Assembly: GCA_024639905.1 (NCBI GenBank)
Contig: JAHEGE010000002.1
Location: forward strand, 62,001-126,000
Direction: 5' to 3'
Source: Gammaproteobacteria bacterium
Lineage (GTDB): Bacteria; Pseudomonadota; Gammaproteobacteria; Pseudomonadales; Pseudohongiellaceae
DNA length: 64,000 nt
Part shown: positions 4,526-10,091 of the stretch, piece after piece
How the letters are laid out: each line of letters opens with the position of its first letter
Numbering within the stretch: the first letter of the stretch is position 1
Program-made: the position numbers and the translations under genes
Notes under the pieces: generated by a model
Seen by the model: the letters and a program-made list of their open reading frames with translations, nothing else
What the model was told of the DNA's origin: nothing
The model's database searches: none

Positions 4526-5869
4526 TTAGATGCCGTTTGGCTCCATAATGGCCTGATAGAGCAGGCGGCGCGACGTGCCACGCACATCGGGGATGCCGTT
4601 GCCGAACTGCTGAATCATGCCAACGAAGACGATGTTCTCAACAGGGTCAACCCAGAACCAAGTGCCAGCTGCGCCTCCCCAGTAGTATTCGCCTTTGGAG
4701 TAGCCTTCGGCTTCGACAGGGTCTTCGACAATTGCGAAGTCGAGGCCGAAAGTCGTGCCGCGTGCGCCGAGGATAGTATCGCCAAGCCCTTTAGGAAGCT
4801 GGTTACGATGCATTAGCTCGACGGTGAGTGGAGCGAGAATGCGCGCGCCATCGAGCTCGCCTCCATTGAGTAGCATCTGGCTAAAGCGTAAATAGTCCAT
4901 TGCCGAACCGACGAGGCCGCCGCCACCGCCTTCAAACTGGTGCTCGACTAAGTAGCTCGGGCCGCCGGTGAAGCCTTCGCTCGCAAAAAGCTTGCCGTCG
5001 GGACCGTAGGCATAAACCTCGGCGAGGCGATCAGCCTTATCCGCTGGCACGAAGAAATCGGTGTCTACCATACCTAGGGGCTGGAAGATTCGCTGTTCGA
5101 GGAAATCGGAGAAACGCTGTCCTGAGAGTTTTTCGACGAGATAGCCTTGCACGTCGACAGAGACGCTGTAATGCCACAGAGAGCCAGGCTGCTGACGCAG
5201 AGGGATCTTCGCAAGCTTATCGATCATATCCTGCAGAGTTGAGTCGGGAGCTAAGACTTGGGCTTGATTGTAGAGATCGTCGACAGCAGATTGCGAGAAC
5301 AGGCCGTAAGTCAGGCCTCCCGTATGGTTCATCAGCTCTCGTATCGTCATGGGATGGTCTGCAGGCTCGGTCAGCATGGCGCCGCTTGCGTCTGTGCCGG
5401 CGTAGACCTGAAGGTTCTCGAATTCGGGGATGTACTTGGCGACGGGGTCTGAGAGTCTAAATTTGCCTTCTTCATAGAGCATCATCATCGCTACGCCGGT
5501 GATTGGCTTAGTCATCGAATAGATGCGGAACAGGTCGTCGTTCTCCATCGCGTCGCCCGCGGCTATGTCGCGTTGGCCGACGGATTCAAAATGAAAGATC
5601 TTGCCGTCGCGGGCAGCGGCTGTCACAACGCCTGCGAGTTTGCCTTCGTCGACAAATCCTTGCATGGCCTGTGTCACACGCTCGAGGCGTGCCGAGTCGA
5701 TGCCGACTGATTCAGGGCTCGCGTAGTCTAGGCCTGTAAGCGTGCGCAGGCTGCTGGGCTGGCTGGCGCAGGCGGCGAGCAGCGCAGTTGCCGCCACGAG
5801 CAGCGAGGCTTTGCGCCAGAGTGGTTGGGTGTTGCTGGGAGTTGGGGTGTGGTACGAAGTGGCACTCAT
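4526..5869 (-). CDS. lipoprotein serine hydrolase, class C beta-lactamase fold
   Basis: A 447-residue member of the beta-lactamase/penicillin-binding/esterase family. A long n-region is followed by a hydrophobic segment and lipobox LAAC (Cys34), so it is probably an outer-membrane lipoprotein facing the periplasm. The catalytic SxxK is SMTK at 118-121. The second motif reads Tyr234-Ser235-Val where true AmpC enzymes have YxN. NHTGGLTYG (181-) and GGAAGTWFW near the C-terminus are typical of EstB-like esterases. I therefore favour an esterase or D-aminopeptidase-like hydrolase over an antibiotic-hydrolysing lactamase. It is divergent from the DUF2239 gene, with a shared control region at 5870-6064. 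Confidence 0.85.
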   Translation of the reverse strand: MSATSYHTPTPSNTQPLWRKASLLVAATALLAACASQPSSLRTLTGLDYASPESVGIDSARLERVTQAMQGFVDEGKLAGVVTAAARDGKIFHFESVGQRDIAAGDAMENDDLFRIYSMTKPITGVAMMMLYEEGKFRLSDPVAKYIPEFENLQVYAGTDASGAMLTEPADHPMTIRELMNHTGGLTYGLFSQSAVDDLYNQAQVLAPDSTLQDMIDKLAKIPLRQQPGSLWHYSVSVDVQGYLVEKLSGQRFSDFLEQRIFQPLGMVDTDFFVPADKADRLAEVYAYGPDGKLFASEGFTGGPSYLVEHQFEGGGGGLVGSAMDYLRFSQMLLNGGELDGARILAPLTVELMHRNQLPKGLGDTILGARGTTFGLDFAIVEDPVEAEGYSKGEYYWGGAAGTWFWVDPVENIVFVGMIQQFGNGIPDVRGTSRRLLYQAIMEPNGI

Positions 5870-5986
5870 AGTCGATTCTCTGTTCGTGGGAGGGGATGGG
5901 TGATTTGGGCTGTGTGCAAAGAACTTTTCCGAGAATAGGACGCCGAGCGTCCGCTTGTCTAGGTTTGCTGGCTGAGAAGATTAAGG

Positions 5987-6037
5987 CCAAGGTATTATTA
6001 TTTAAACCATGGTAATTATATTATTGCCATGGTTTAA
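5987..6037. promoter_or_regulatory. operator array: three CCWWGG boxes at exact 20-bp spacing
   Basis: CCAAGG at 5987, CCATGG at 6007 and CCATGG at 6027 are exactly 20 bp apart and each is followed by AT-rich sequence. The last two lie within an inverted repeat with 15-base arms (6002-6016 and 6023-6037, one mismatch) around a TATATT centre. The array sits between divergent genes and overlaps candidate -10 elements on both strands. It looks like a multi-site operator. The bound protein is unknown; the membrane-anchored regulator at 6780-8225 is one candidate. Confidence 0.6.
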
Positions 6038-6043
6038 TGTTCA
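6015..6043 (-). promoter_or_regulatory. candidate promoter for the serine hydrolase gene
   Basis: Read on the minus strand: TGAACA (-35, 4 of 6 consensus bases), a 17-bp spacer, then a perfect TATAAT (-10, 6020-6015), pointing at the hydrolase gene 146 bases away. On the plus strand the overlapping TATATT (6017-6022) could be the -10 for the DUF2239 gene. Both lie inside the operator array. Confidence 0.45.
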
Positions 6044-6064
6044 TCACGTAACAGGAGCAGACCG

Positions 6065-6691
6065 ATGACAACAAGTAATGAGACGCCGTATTTCGCTTTC
6101 AAGGGCGATCGGCTCGTGGCAGAGGGCGCGCCCTCGCAAGTAGCACTGCAGCTAAAAGCCGAGCAAGGAGAAGAGCGTCTGCGACGCGGCGAGATTCTCG
6201 TCTTCAGCGGCAGTGACGGACGCCAGATTGACCTGCATTTGGTGGGTAGCGAGGCGGATGCTGACCTGCGCGTTCGCTTGGCCGTTACTGACGAGTTAGT
6301 CGCCGCGCCTGAGGGTGTTGCGGGGGCTATAGACACGGATCCACCCAAACGAGGGAGAGGAAGGCCCAGGCTTGGCGTGGTAGGCCGCGAAATCACCTTG
6401 CTGCCACGTCATTGGGAGTGGCTCGACCGGCAGCGCGGGGGGGCATCGGCAACGCTGCGCAGACTGGTCGATGCCGAGCGCAAGGCAACGGTGACACAGG
6501 ATGAGCAGCGCTTAAGCCAAGACCGCACTAATCACTTCCTCTCGGCCATGGCGGGTGACCTAGCGGGTTTCGAAGACGCCACGCGCGCGCTCTATGCGGG
6601 CGATCGAGCGGGATTCGAGGTGGCGAGTGTGTCGTGGTGTGCAGATATAAGGCGAGTGGCGATGCAGCTTGCGGATGCCGCCTTCGGCTAG
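6065..6691 (+). CDS. DUF2239 family protein
   Basis: A 208-residue protein of the uncharacterised DUF2239 family. An N-terminal domain (FKGDRLVAEG, residues 12-21; VFSGSDGRQIDLHL, about 46-59) is joined by a basic AT-hook-like segment KRGRGRPRLG (about 96-105). The family's most recognisable motif follows: REITLLPRHWEWL and then GGASATLRRLVD. The C-terminal 70 residues are helical. The GRGRPR element suggests nucleic-acid contact, but function is unknown. ATG at 6065 has an AGGAG site eight bases upstream. It is divergent from the serine hydrolase and followed by the membrane regulator. Confidence 0.85.
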   Translation: MTTSNETPYFAFKGDRLVAEGAPSQVALQLKAEQGEERLRRGEILVFSGSDGRQIDLHLVGSEADADLRVRLAVTDELVAAPEGVAGAIDTDPPKRGRGRPRLGVVGREITLLPRHWEWLDRQRGGASATLRRLVDAERKATVTQDEQRLSQDRTNHFLSAMAGDLAGFEDATRALYAGDRAGFEVASVSWCADIRRVAMQLADAAFG

Positions 6692-6718
6692 CCCTGCGCT
6701 GCTTCAGAGTCCAGCGGG

Positions 6719-6727
6719 TGATATACT
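6719..6727 (+). promoter_or_regulatory. extended -10 promoter element for the membrane regulator
   Basis: TGATATACT matches the extended -10 consensus TGnTATAAT at all but one position. It lies 28 bases after the DUF2239 stop. A start of transcription near 6734 would exclude the upstream in-frame ATG at 6669 and support the ATG at 6780, which has AGGG five bases ahead. Confidence 0.45.
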
Positions 6728-6779
6728 GCCGCAGCTGGGCGGCTTGGACGTCGTGATGTTGGATGTTTTTAGGGTTTTC

Positions 6780-8225
6780 ATGGCACAGATGCAAAGCGGC
6801 GATCAGTCTGCCGAACGACACGGGCGTAACGCTTCGAAGGCTAGCGATGAGTTAGGCGCGGTGGCTACCCCGTCGCTCGCCGCTGACGGCTTCGGGTCAG
6901 GCCCGCTGCGTGCACTTGGCGAGCGCATCGTCGCGAGCGGAGCTTTGGGGCGTTCGCAAACTTACGAGCGCCTGCTGAATTACCTCATCGATGCGAGTAT
7001 TAACGGCGAGACTCCACGCGAGTTAGACATCGCGCTCGGTGCGCTGGGGCGCGATGACAGTTTCGACGTGACTGCCGATTCGGCAGTGCGCGTCGCCATC
7101 CATCAGCTGCGTAAGAAGCTATCAGCGTATTATGCCGAGCACGAGCCGGCAGCCGAGTTATGTCTGGTGCTGCCCAAGGGGAGGCATAGTCTTTACGCCG
7201 AGGCCAAGCCTCGCGCCGCGATTGACGATTCGCTCACCACTAACGCTCTCCCTAACGCCCTCCCTAACGCCGCCATGCCGGGCGAGAATCGCTCGCCCGC
7301 GCGGCTGGCAAGCCTATTTACTTGGAATAGCTTAAGCCTTAACACAGCGCTATTAGTGATCGCTATCGTCTTGCTAGTAGGTAATTTGCTCCGCAGTGGC
7401 GCGCCTGAGATACAGCGCGTAAACGCAGTGGCAAGCATTGCCGGACATCCTCTCTGGGCGAGCGTGCTTGCAGACGACAAGCCGCTGCTTATTGTGATGG
7501 GTGATTACTACATTTTCGGCGAGCTTAGTGCGAACGGAAACGTGGCGCGTATGGTGCGCGAGTTCAATGTGAATTCGAGCACCGATCTCGAAGAGCTGCG
7601 CTTTAGCGACATCGAACACACCGAGAATTACCTCGACCTCGATCTCAGTTACATGCCAGAAGGGAGTGCGTTTGCTCTTGCCAGAATCGTTCCGCTTCTT
7701 CAGCAGAGCGGTAAGGTGATTAATATGACGATGATGTCAGACCTTACCACGGCAGACATACGCGCTAACCACCTGGTCTATATCGGCTACATCAGCGCAC
7801 TGGAGCGCCTCGCGAATTTGGCGTTCGCAGGATCCGGGCTTACCATCGGGCGCAGCTACGACGAGCTCATTGAACTCGAGACACAGCGCTATTTTACCAG
7901 TGATGCAGGCCTGCCAGAGCAGGGTGAGCCGTTTCGCGATTACGGGTTTTTCTCGAGTTTTCCTGCAAGCCGAGACACTCAGGTCATTTTAGTTGCTGGC
8001 ATGCGTGACGCTGGGCTTATGCACATGGCGCAGGCGCTGTCGGAGACAGAATCCTTAGACGAGTTGTTGGTATCAATCGATAATGATACCCATGAGGCGC
8101 TGGCAAGCCTTGAGGCGTTGTATGAAGTGTATGGAATAGACCGAATGAATTTCGATGCGAAGCTCGTTTACAGCCACTTGTTGGAGACGGGCAATCTGTG
8201 GGGAGCAGGGTCGAACGAGGAGTAG
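6780..8225 (+). CDS. membrane-anchored winged-helix-like regulator with periplasmic sensor domain
   Basis: A 481-residue protein counted from ATG 6780. An in-frame ATG at 6669 overlaps the previous gene and lies upstream of the likely promoter. Residues about 43-143 resemble the N-terminal DNA-binding-type domain found before adenylate cyclase or TPR parts in other bacteria: helical SQTYERLLNYLID, then DDSFDVTADSAVRVAIHQLR and KLSAYY, then the LPKGRHSL strand pair. An ALPN-repeat linker (a duplicated 12-mer at 7248-7271) precedes one transmembrane helix (about 187-204), so the remaining 275 residues would be periplasmic. I do not recognise that part. This is the layout of a ToxR/CadC-type one-component regulator, but it is not that family; function is inferred. 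Confidence 0.7.
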   Translation: MAQMQSGDQSAERHGRNASKASDELGAVATPSLAADGFGSGPLRALGERIVASGALGRSQTYERLLNYLIDASINGETPRELDIALGALGRDDSFDVTADSAVRVAIHQLRKKLSAYYAEHEPAAELCLVLPKGRHSLYAEAKPRAAIDDSLTTNALPNALPNAAMPGENRSPARLASLFTWNSLSLNTALLVIAIVLLVGNLLRSGAPEIQRVNAVASIAGHPLWASVLADDKPLLIVMGDYYIFGELSANGNVARMVREFNVNSSTDLEELRFSDIEHTENYLDLDLSYMPEGSAFALARIVPLLQQSGKVINMTMMSDLTTADIRANHLVYIGYISALERLANLAFAGSGLTIGRSYDELIELETQRYFTSDAGLPEQGEPFRDYGFFSSFPASRDTQVILVAGMRDAGLMHMAQALSETESLDELLVSIDNDTHEALASLEALYEVYGIDRMNFDAKLVYSHLLETGNLWGAGSNEE

Positions 8226-8630: not shown

Positions 8631-10091
8631 ATGCCCTGCGCTAGCATTTTCGTGGCGATTTCCGGCGAGTCCTCAGAGCGGCTAGGAGAGTGTGGCTTGT
8701 CCTCAATGAATACCCCAATGCGCAGTCCTCGGCCGCGCCTCTCAGTCGTGATTCCAGTTCTCAATGAAGCGCCGTCGCTGACGCGTTTTTTGACACGCTT
8801 GCAACCGTGGCGAGAGGCCGGCCATGAGCTGATTGTCGTCGACGGGAAGAGCGAGGACGACAGCGCGGCGTCGGCTATTCCCTTGGCCGATAGTGTGAAG
8901 ATCGCCCCCCCCAGCAGGGCAGGCCAGATGCGAGTAGGGGCTGCACTCGCTAGCGGTGATCTACTCTTGTTTCTCCATGCGGATACCGACTTACCTCTCA
9001 ACGCGCCCGAGCTTATCGAAGGCGCACTGGAGCATGGAGCGGATTGGGGCTGGTTCGACGTCACACTCGACGCGCCGGGGCTCGCGTTTAGGATTATTGG
9101 TGCGGCGATGAATGCGCGTGCGCGGCTAACTCGTGTGTGCACTGGCGACCAAGCGCTTTTCGTGCGCCGCGAACTGTACTCTCGACTAGGAGGCTTTCCT
9201 CGTTATCCGCTCATGGAAGACGTCGCATTTAGCAAGCGCTTACGCGCCGTCGCCGCTGCAGGTGTCATCTCGACGCCAGGGATCACCTCGAGCAGGCGCT
9301 GGCAGAAGAAAGGGGTTCTGCGAACAGTCTTGCTTATGTGGGAACTGCGGCTGCGCTACTTCTTTGGCGAATCGCCCGTGTCTCTGCACCGACGCTATTA
9401 TCCAGCGAGCCGTCCGCAGGTGTTGAAGTACCCCCAAGCGCGCGTGCGCGTCTTCGCCAAAGAGCCTGTCGCCGGCCAAGTAAAGACTCGGCTCATTACT
9501 GCCCTTGGTGCCGAGCAAGCCATGGCGCTGCATTGTGCCATGGTAGGGCGGATAGCTGGGATGCTCAGCGGGTCGTCGCTTGCGCCTTGGGGGTTTTCCG
9601 TCGCCGGCGATCAGACTCATAAGCTTTTTAGCGGGCGCGGCGCTAGCCTAGCCGCGGTGCCGCAGCGTGGGTCAGATCTCGGCGAACGCATGGCGCTGGC
9701 TGCGCGAAACAGTCTAGCTGGCCTCGATGAAGTGGATCCCGGAGAAGCCAACCTCGATGAGGGGGCGGTTGGCGCCGTGGTGCTCTTGGGCGCAGACTGT
9801 CCCGCGCTCACGGCGGAGGTCTTAGAGCAGGCGCTGGCCTCACTAACCCAAGGCGCTGAGGTAGTCTTCGTGCCTGCAGTGGACGGGGGTTATGTGCTTC
9901 TGGGTATGACTCGATTTGTCCCCGAGCTGTTCGACAATATCGCCTGGGGAACGCCTGTGGTCTTAGCGCAGAGTCTTGAGCGTCTGCGTGGCGTTGGTAT
10001 AGAGGCCACCTGTCTGGCGCCGCTATGGGATGTGGATACTGAGGACGACTTGGTACGCCTAGAGGGCCTGGAACCGCCGCTCAGCTTTTAG
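8631..10091 (+). CDS. fused glycosyltransferase: TIGR04283-like domain + TIGR04282-like domain
   Basis: Two enzymes normally encoded separately are joined. Residues about 36-265 form a GT-A glycosyltransferase: LSVVIPVLNE, ELIVVDGKSEDDS, FLHADTDLP, the acceptor loop TGDQALFVRR, and GGFPRYPLMEDV. Residues about 270-486 form the DUF2064/TIGR04282-type nucleotidyl-sugar domain (VRVFAKEPVAGQVKTRL, LGADCPALT, PAVDGGYVLLGM, WDVDTEDDL). Both families carry the label arsenosugar biosynthesis glycosyltransferase, but no arsM or radical SAM arsenosugar gene is nearby, so the substrate is open. The start is uncertain: ATG 8631 is the outermost, while ATG 8706 or 8718 would leave both domains intact; none has a good ribosome site. 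Confidence 0.85.
   Translation: MPCASIFVAISGESSERLGECGLSSMNTPMRSPRPRLSVVIPVLNEAPSLTRFLTRLQPWREAGHELIVVDGKSEDDSAASAIPLADSVKIAPPSRAGQMRVGAALASGDLLLFLHADTDLPLNAPELIEGALEHGADWGWFDVTLDAPGLAFRIIGAAMNARARLTRVCTGDQALFVRRELYSRLGGFPRYPLMEDVAFSKRLRAVAAAGVISTPGITSSRRWQKKGVLRTVLLMWELRLRYFFGESPVSLHRRYYPASRPQVLKYPQARVRVFAKEPVAGQVKTRLITALGAEQAMALHCAMVGRIAGMLSGSSLAPWGFSVAGDQTHKLFSGRGASLAAVPQRGSDLGERMALAARNSLAGLDEVDPGEANLDEGAVGAVVLLGADCPALTAEVLEQALASLTQGAEVVFVPAVDGGYVLLGMTRFVPELFDNIAWGTPVVLAQSLERLRGVGIEATCLAPLWDVDTEDDLVRLEGLEPPLSF

Follow-up and report, generated by a model that had tools for sequence, protein, structure and literature searches.

Autoregulated efflux repressors of the TetR and MarR types act on a palindrome over their own promoter, and their targets are adjacent or distant genes for efflux pumps and detoxifying enzymes. 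In ToxR/CadC-type transmembrane transcription regulators, treated by Demey et al. 2023 (PMC10269533), an OmpR/PhoB-type winged helix is joined by one membrane helix to a C-terminal periplasmic domain. Both types have a possible counterpart in a 64,000-nucleotide stretch of a Pseudohongiellaceae genome of 2.67 Mb (Gammaproteobacteria bacterium, assembly GCA_024639905.1, contig JAHEGE010000002.1, positions 62,001 to 126,000; hereafter the window, whose own numbering is used throughout), where the gene of a predicted envelope serine hydrolase is divergent from that of a DUF2239 protein, and the latter is followed by the gene of a 481-residue predicted transmembrane regulator (here termed REG). 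A sequence-only reading of the window had joined these three genes into one signalling system; with a probability of about two in three, the locus instead holds two separate regulators side by side, namely DUF2239, with an operator of its own, and the transmembrane REG.

The palindrome upstream of DUF2239

The hydrolase and DUF2239 genes have a common control region, as had been proposed, while the "phased operator array" described there proves to be one 36-bp palindrome (Table 1), no family of direct repeats having been found. Its arms (6002–6019 and 6020–6037) are 89% complementary, each contains CCATGG, with the centres 20 bp apart, and it is overlapped by a sigma-70-like promoter towards the hydrolase, a class of site that occurs 6 times in 4.3 kb against a mean of 2.3 in shuffles. 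Allowing up to three mismatches, an arm is found in the window at these two places only (0.01 expected) and once more in the rest of the genome, with three mismatches and inside another gene, and the full operator pattern is confined to the DUF2239/hydrolase control region in the whole genome. A CCATGG pair 20 bp apart also stands between the hydrolase and DUF2239 genes in four relatives (L030, L061, L062 and L094), the first of which shares with the window 83% (hydrolase), 59% (DUF2239) and 63% (REG) protein identity. Sensitive blastn alignments of the window with these four loci break off at about 5736 and start again at 6370 at the earliest, which leaves the palindrome as a footprint amid DNA that does not align; the wider claim that hardly any DNA is common to the window and these loci was rejected, as the same search aligns long coding stretches at 66–80%.

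DUF2239 is encoded in 10 of the 58 relatives, 2 of the 274 class-sample genomes and 43 of the 398 phylum-sample genomes, each count including the window genome; the alphaproteobacterium Caulobacter vibrioides, a control genome, has a homologue as well. The DNA upstream of it elsewhere often carries two-site operators (TTTACCCGGGTAA; TTTACCCGGGTAATAT-like sites, mostly two), in which the sites are mostly 25–29 bp apart (18–20 bp in L176, L183 and L184), the spacing in the window's clade being mostly 20–21 bp. With a position weight matrix (PWM) trained on 18 non-redundant distant loci, the best site lies above every shuffle in 16 of 18 held-out upstream regions, a half that is not fully blind because the operator seed was picked after the DUF2239 loci had been viewed; among close relatives, 14 of 15 regions exceed the 95th percentile and 9 of 15 exceed every shuffle. 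Within the 209 kb that surround 20 DUF2239 genes, PWM hits of at least 16 are confined to the DUF2239/GIY control region (GIY denoting a GIY-YIG-like gene present in 13 of 42 DUF2239 loci), where 18 of the 20 genes have one. These operators stand in genomes in which no REG is nearby: no REG, decarboxylase or hydrolase of the window type occurs beside DUF2239 in 32 loci of about 3.5 kb, which extend only about 1.5 kb to each side, and the same is true of 20 loci of 8.7–10.7 kb, partly from the same genomes.

A strict pairing of operator and gene is weakened by 4 of 42 distant DUF2239 loci that have no site within 180 bp. In two of them (L174 and L164) DUF2239 is preceded by a co-oriented GIY-YIG-like gene, and it is upstream of the latter that the sites are found; in a third (L175) a site lies about 200 bp upstream, and L178 is the sole one without a site accounted for. 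A further point of this kind comes from L093, where sequences that weakly resemble the site lie about 400 bp upstream of a DUF2239 fragment; a loss of the operator along with a decaying DUF2239 gene was therefore rejected, and neither this correction nor that on shared DNA alters the odds given above. Such decay is seen in genome G007 (L048/L093; internal stops), and in G031:C221 the gene is split into two open reading frames (ORFs).

Putative regulon and candidate binder

A pattern scan covered the 42 other DUF2239-positive phylum-sample genomes together with G246 (43 in all) and 23 DUF2239-negative genomes. The motif outnumbers its reversed control pattern by 193 to 35 in the positive genomes, a figure in which the sites of DUF2239 itself are counted and palindromes score on both strands, while the counts in the negative genomes are 109 and 116. 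When only genomes with a low control count are taken, the figures are 158 against 16 (40 positive genomes) and 35 against 11 (15 negative genomes), so there is some excess of the motif in the negatives too. This comparison is weakened by its sampling, as the negative genomes come mostly from other families and the two sets are unmatched for family and base composition.

Away from DUF2239, 23 places match the motif with at most one mismatch, and 16 of these lie at genes of three families, GIY-YIG-like (8), MATE efflux (5) and FAD monooxygenase (3); one lies at an alpha/beta hydrolase gene, the product of which most resembles macrolide-esterase models, though with scores well short of their cut-offs, and 6 are other or unclear. 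Among the MATE places, the site stands between a GFA-like gene and the MATE gene in G509, and between the MATE gene and metG in G638 and G612. Several of the inspected matches with two mismatches (L269, L270, L279–L285, L256 and L257) show no consistent target. Similar families adjoin DUF2239 itself, with glutathione S-transferase (GST) making up 10 of 42 upstream neighbours and MATE 9 of 38 downstream neighbours; 11 MATE proteins are present in a 42-protein set of the 38 downstream and 4 off-site proteins, of which BLAST places 9 as neighbours and 2 as off-site targets. The neighbour genes were called by a simple routine that scores ORFs by GC3, and some calls may be wrong. The label GIY-YIG-like is a by-eye reading of G-I-Y...W-V-G, as none of 8 such proteins matches Pfam GIY-YIG at E ≤ 0.5; 4 of 5 show weak similarity (E 0.0014–0.046) to the NCBIfam group I intron endonuclease model.

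Paired operators of the DUF2239 type were seen before an SDR-like gene (G570:C8:73586-73632), between kinase-like and Ppx-like genes (G664:C1:567086-567127), the genes in both cases being named by eye, and before a macrolide-esterase-like hydrolase gene (G512:C35:44563-44608).

The common theme of efflux and detoxification would fit the hydrolase as the local target in the window. DUF2239 probably represses detoxification genes, among them, at this locus, that of the divergent hydrolase. It would bind the two-site palindrome over its own promoter and thus regulate itself. As the window palindrome also covers the divergent hydrolase promoter, binding would silence both genes, until an inducer, probably a toxic small molecule, released the protein. 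In other Proteobacteria, like operators are predicted to serve the MATE-efflux, GIY-YIG-like and FAD-monooxygenase genes that they precede. DUF2239 would thereby resemble the TetR/MarR-type efflux repressors in its palindrome over its own promoter and its efflux and detoxifying candidate targets, and would differ from them in an operator of its own kind, with two sites, and in having DUF2239 as its sole Pfam match at E ≤ 1.

That the protein may itself bind DNA is suggested by its basic core, RGRPKLGVV-REVTLLPRHWEWL, which is almost invariant; the AT-hook-like GRGRPR pointed out earlier is indeed present in the window protein, within RGRGRPR. Residue 107, just before REVT, is glycine in both distant genomes whose operator centre is AA or TT and alanine or proline in the other 36 distant genomes with a site (hypergeometric p 0.004, with a CT-centred exception counted). 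By eye, the core REITLLPRHWEWLDRQ-GGASATLRRLV reads as the strand-helix-turn-helix of ribbon-helix-helix repressors, while the monomer model differs from these in having a long helix, and no Pfam or profile match links the two.

Several results weigh against DUF2239 as the binder. No DNA-binding fold is recognised in it by Pfam, hhalign or fold search: the only Pfam match of the window protein at E ≤ 1 is DUF2239 itself (206.4 bits against a curated cut-off of 25), hhalign against five ribbon-helix-helix proteins gives an insignificant probability of 0.6%, 14 members have no match to the Pfam ribbon-helix-helix families at E ≤ 10 with HMMER filters on, and a Foldseek search of the PDB with the model gives no hit under E 1. 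The best row of the VIA fold comparison is an uninformative helical match (Z 7.0), and the core is modelled at low confidence, with a predicted local distance difference test (pLDDT) score below 50 for residues 76–112. As to residue 107, L165 combines a CT operator centre with alanine, and in the window's clade the residue is always glycine while the operator centres vary, so relatedness weakens that part of the argument.

The lack of a recognised fold is also what lends some credit to an unlinked transcription factor as the binder, with DUF2239 only a member of its regulon, and the presence of the same sites at GIY-YIG-like, MATE and monooxygenase genes agrees with this. Such a factor is nevertheless unlikely: DUF2239 is the one gene seen with the operator in all these lineages, the window genome has the operator only at the DUF2239/hydrolase region, the motif is not enriched in the DUF2239-negative genomes, and residue 107 covaries with the operator centre.

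A wider proposition, which we consider evenly balanced, is that DUF2239, the probable autoregulating DNA-binding protein, founds an undescribed transcription-factor family with an operator code all of its own (two TTTACCNNGGTAAA sites), residue 107 helping to read the operator centre, and a regulon that is a xenobiotic-defence switch across Gammaproteobacteria and other classes of the phylum, comprising MATE efflux, GIY-YIG-like proteins, FAD monooxygenases, GST and hydrolases of ester- and beta-lactam-type folds. This would be the first function for a family found in 43 of the 398 sampled phylum genomes, with a readily testable operator and an efflux and detoxifying regulon. DUF2239, formerly treated as a bystander, is the more interesting half of the locus. 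No mention of DUF2239 by name was found in the open-access literature searched; matches there to the operator strings and to COG3644 are unrelated by their titles, and titles and the opening lines of abstracts show nothing on these families for ToxR-like regulators with TonB receptors or PepSY, for DUF2239 with MATE or GIY-YIG, or for BcsB.

The transmembrane regulator REG

The third protein was described from sequence as having an N-terminal winged-helix-like domain, one membrane helix and a large C-terminal domain, and its structure model (mean pLDDT 85.5, 60 sequences) bears out this layout, the C-terminal domain being of alpha/beta type (Table 1). Trans_reg_C is matched by 56 of the 60 family members at E ≤ 0.1 (best 1.6e-7), and the nearest folds of the N-terminal domain in the VIA comparison are SaeR (Z 7.2), PhoB (6.6) and CadC (6.2), so that it models as a winged helix of DNA-binding type and the ToxR/CadC-like architecture is upheld. 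The periplasmic domain, previously termed unrecognised, remains so for sequence libraries but not for fold comparison, where it aligns with BcsB (6yg8_B; Z 12.2, root-mean-square deviation 3.0, 167 aligned) and with the N-terminal domains of GH67, GH115 and GH84 enzymes (Z about 6–9.5). Conserved DYY, DYG and RD residues lie in this domain. The model presents REG as a transmembrane regulator of ToxR/CadC-like type, its periplasmic domain resembling BcsB. It shares with the class of Demey et al. 2023 the three-part layout, and is set apart by this BcsB/glucuronidase-N-domain-like domain, as well as by the linkage of its distant members to PepSY proteins and TonB-dependent receptors. A ToxS/VtrC-like partner did not come to notice, no search aimed at one having been made.

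These assignments have weak points. For Trans_reg_C, the window protein by itself reaches 12.7 bits (E 0.14), against a cut-off of 26.2, and VIA itself notes that a Z below 8, as for the winged helix, may reflect a common arrangement. Foldseek gives no match at E ≤ 0.001, the best being BcsB at 8e-3, and hhalign of the periplasmic domain against five BcsB sequences gives a probability of 0.5% (E 0.12); the likeness to this periplasmic cellulose-synthase subunit is one of fold, with no significant relation in sequence, and the BcsB family has no match in the window genome. PDB sequence searches yield no firm match, SaeR appearing only at E 0.22–0.54, and a cytochrome chain at E 0.0016 is taken for a chance hit.

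REG is encoded in 20 of the 58 relatives, all of the window's genus, and was followed in 38 close loci (L061–L098) and in distant loci mainly from Caulobacterales and Sphingomonadales. In the close loci, a malonyl-CoA decarboxylase gene precedes it in 26 of 38 and a DUF2239 gene in 13, with a fragment in one more; DUF2239 is present in none of 42 distant loci. The hydrolase, DUF2239 and REG genes recur together in six other relatives, contiguously in four and with the decarboxylase gene in between in two, so co-location of the three holds within the clade, and no such trio was found outside it. An extended -10 element stands at most 110 bp before REG in 29 of 38 loci (the window and 37 close loci, those without a match included), against a mean of 0.10 and a maximum of 2 in shuffles; this pattern and that of the repeats below were written after the sequences had been viewed. 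On account of this promoter-like element, REG as a mere second gene of the DUF2239 transcript was rejected.

TonB-dependent receptors make up 28 of 76 scanned neighbour proteins, hand-chosen as the nearest ORFs with some short ones omitted (48 of 80 loci, mostly distant). Of 43 distant loci, 12 encode PepSY proteins, and among the close ones a TonB-dependent receptor with PepSY follows REG in four and a different receptor in L085. Tandem GTTAC-type repeats with a 9–11-bp period lie upstream of REG in 21 of 43 distant loci (maximum 2 in shuffles), often in the space common to REG and a divergent receptor gene; a Phenylobacterium receptor gene is one that has such repeats. Tandem repeats of such a period are expected for a winged helix of OmpR/PhoB type. 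The periplasmic domain of REG would sense a ligand and its cytoplasmic winged helix bind the direct repeats, the likely target in distant relatives being the neighbouring TonB-dependent receptor, often followed by the PepSY membrane protein. Weighing against this for the window itself are the absence of both the GTTAC repeat box and an adjoining receptor there, and the presence of the repeat pattern in only 1 of 37 close loci. A different box, GTTATTAACAGTTATTTAC (0–1 mismatch), lies 118–170 bp before the receptor gene in four close loci, including L085, the receptor of which is unmatched by the profile of the other three; this 19-bp box was not found in the window. If the proposal holds, it gives a name to a second family of regulators, transmembrane proteins that are tied to TonB-dependent receptors and whose periplasmic domain is cellulose-synthase-like.

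The sequence-only reading thus described real features and the correct type of regulator, yet joined two systems into one. Its central idea, that REG is the receptor-regulator of the locus, binds the operator and controls the hydrolase and DUF2239 as output, has in its favour the ToxR/CadC-like nature of REG and the recurrence of the three genes in the six clade genomes. It is improbable and was set aside, because the operators follow DUF2239 into genomes without REG nearby, REG mostly occurs without DUF2239 and has its own promoter-like element, and distant REG relatives have direct repeats rather than the window palindrome. Least credible of all is a non-transcriptional site, such as a restriction-modification or DNA-processing target on which the GIY-YIG-like protein acts, which the CCATGG/CCCGGG palindromes and a neighbour weakly similar to a group I intron endonuclease model might suggest, as the sites are paired, mostly 18–29 bp apart and upstream of DUF2239 or regulon genes, and none of the 25 neighbour families listed by either of two neighbour scans is a DNA-methyltransferase family (one neighbour in the downstream/off-site set matches the general families Methyltransf_11/23/25).

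Other genes were observed near REG homologues. A BlaR1-type M56 metallopeptidase gene lies directly downstream in some relatives (L034:10750-12606, where the protein carries TPR repeats, and L063:11480-13585), M56 accounting for 4 of the 76 neighbours. In most close relatives, a gene for a small AP2-domain protein (PF00847) lies downstream of REG in the opposite orientation (for example L031:8712-9086 and L033:10834-11268); beside the window REG no such gene was found. In L026 and L027, on Catenovulum plasmids, the homologues adjoin c-type cytochrome, beta-galactosidase, DUF1553 and DUF1501 genes, with a GH115 gene nearby in L027, and have no TonB receptor neighbours. A window-like hydrolase gene stands beside REG homologues in two sphingomonads (L029:9202-10599, L138:11449-12852).

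Features of the locus

Table 1. Genes and predicted elements of the hydrolase/DUF2239/REG locus, in window coordinates
Feature	Position	Strand	Basis
Serine hydrolase, class C beta-lactamase/esterase fold, predicted lipoprotein	4526..5869	-	PF00144, E 5e-71
Two-site palindromic operator (candidate), TTAAACCATGGTAATTAT / ATTATTGCCATGGTTTAA	6002..6037	.	Layout similar in relatives
Sigma-70-like promoter towards hydrolase, TGAACA-17-TATAAT, 10/12, across operator	6015..6043	-	Consensus match only
DUF2239 protein, 208 aa	6065..6691	+	PF09998, E 4e-61
DUF2239 basic core, highly conserved, residues 98-135, RGRPRLGVVGREITLLPRHWEWLDRQRGGASATLRRLV	6356..6469	+	
Extended -10 promoter-like element of REG gene, GTGATATACT	6718..6727	+	
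REG, transmembrane transcription regulator (predicted), 481 aa	6780..8225	+	
REG residues 40-142, OmpR/PhoB-type winged helix	6897..7205	+	Structure model, VIA, Trans_reg_C in homologues
REG residues 187-221, single hydrophobic helix, predicted membrane span	7338..7442	+	Model and sequence
REG residues 222-474, periplasmic domain, BcsB/glucuronidase-N-domain-like fold	7443..8201	+	VIA fold comparison

ORFs and Pfam matches agree on the divergent arrangement of the hydrolase and DUF2239 genes (Table 1). The assignment of the former as an envelope serine hydrolase is likewise sustained, as the protein has a lipobox (LLAAC) and an SxxK catalytic motif (SMTK), both read by eye. Its best NCBIfam model is AcmB (E 7e-55; 186 bits against a cut-off of 550), and it is below the equivalog cut-off for a resistance enzyme (bla_class_C, 55 bits against 415). 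Further along the window, at 8631–10091, a family-2 glycosyltransferase and DUF2064 are fused in one ORF, the two being separate ORFs in several relatives.

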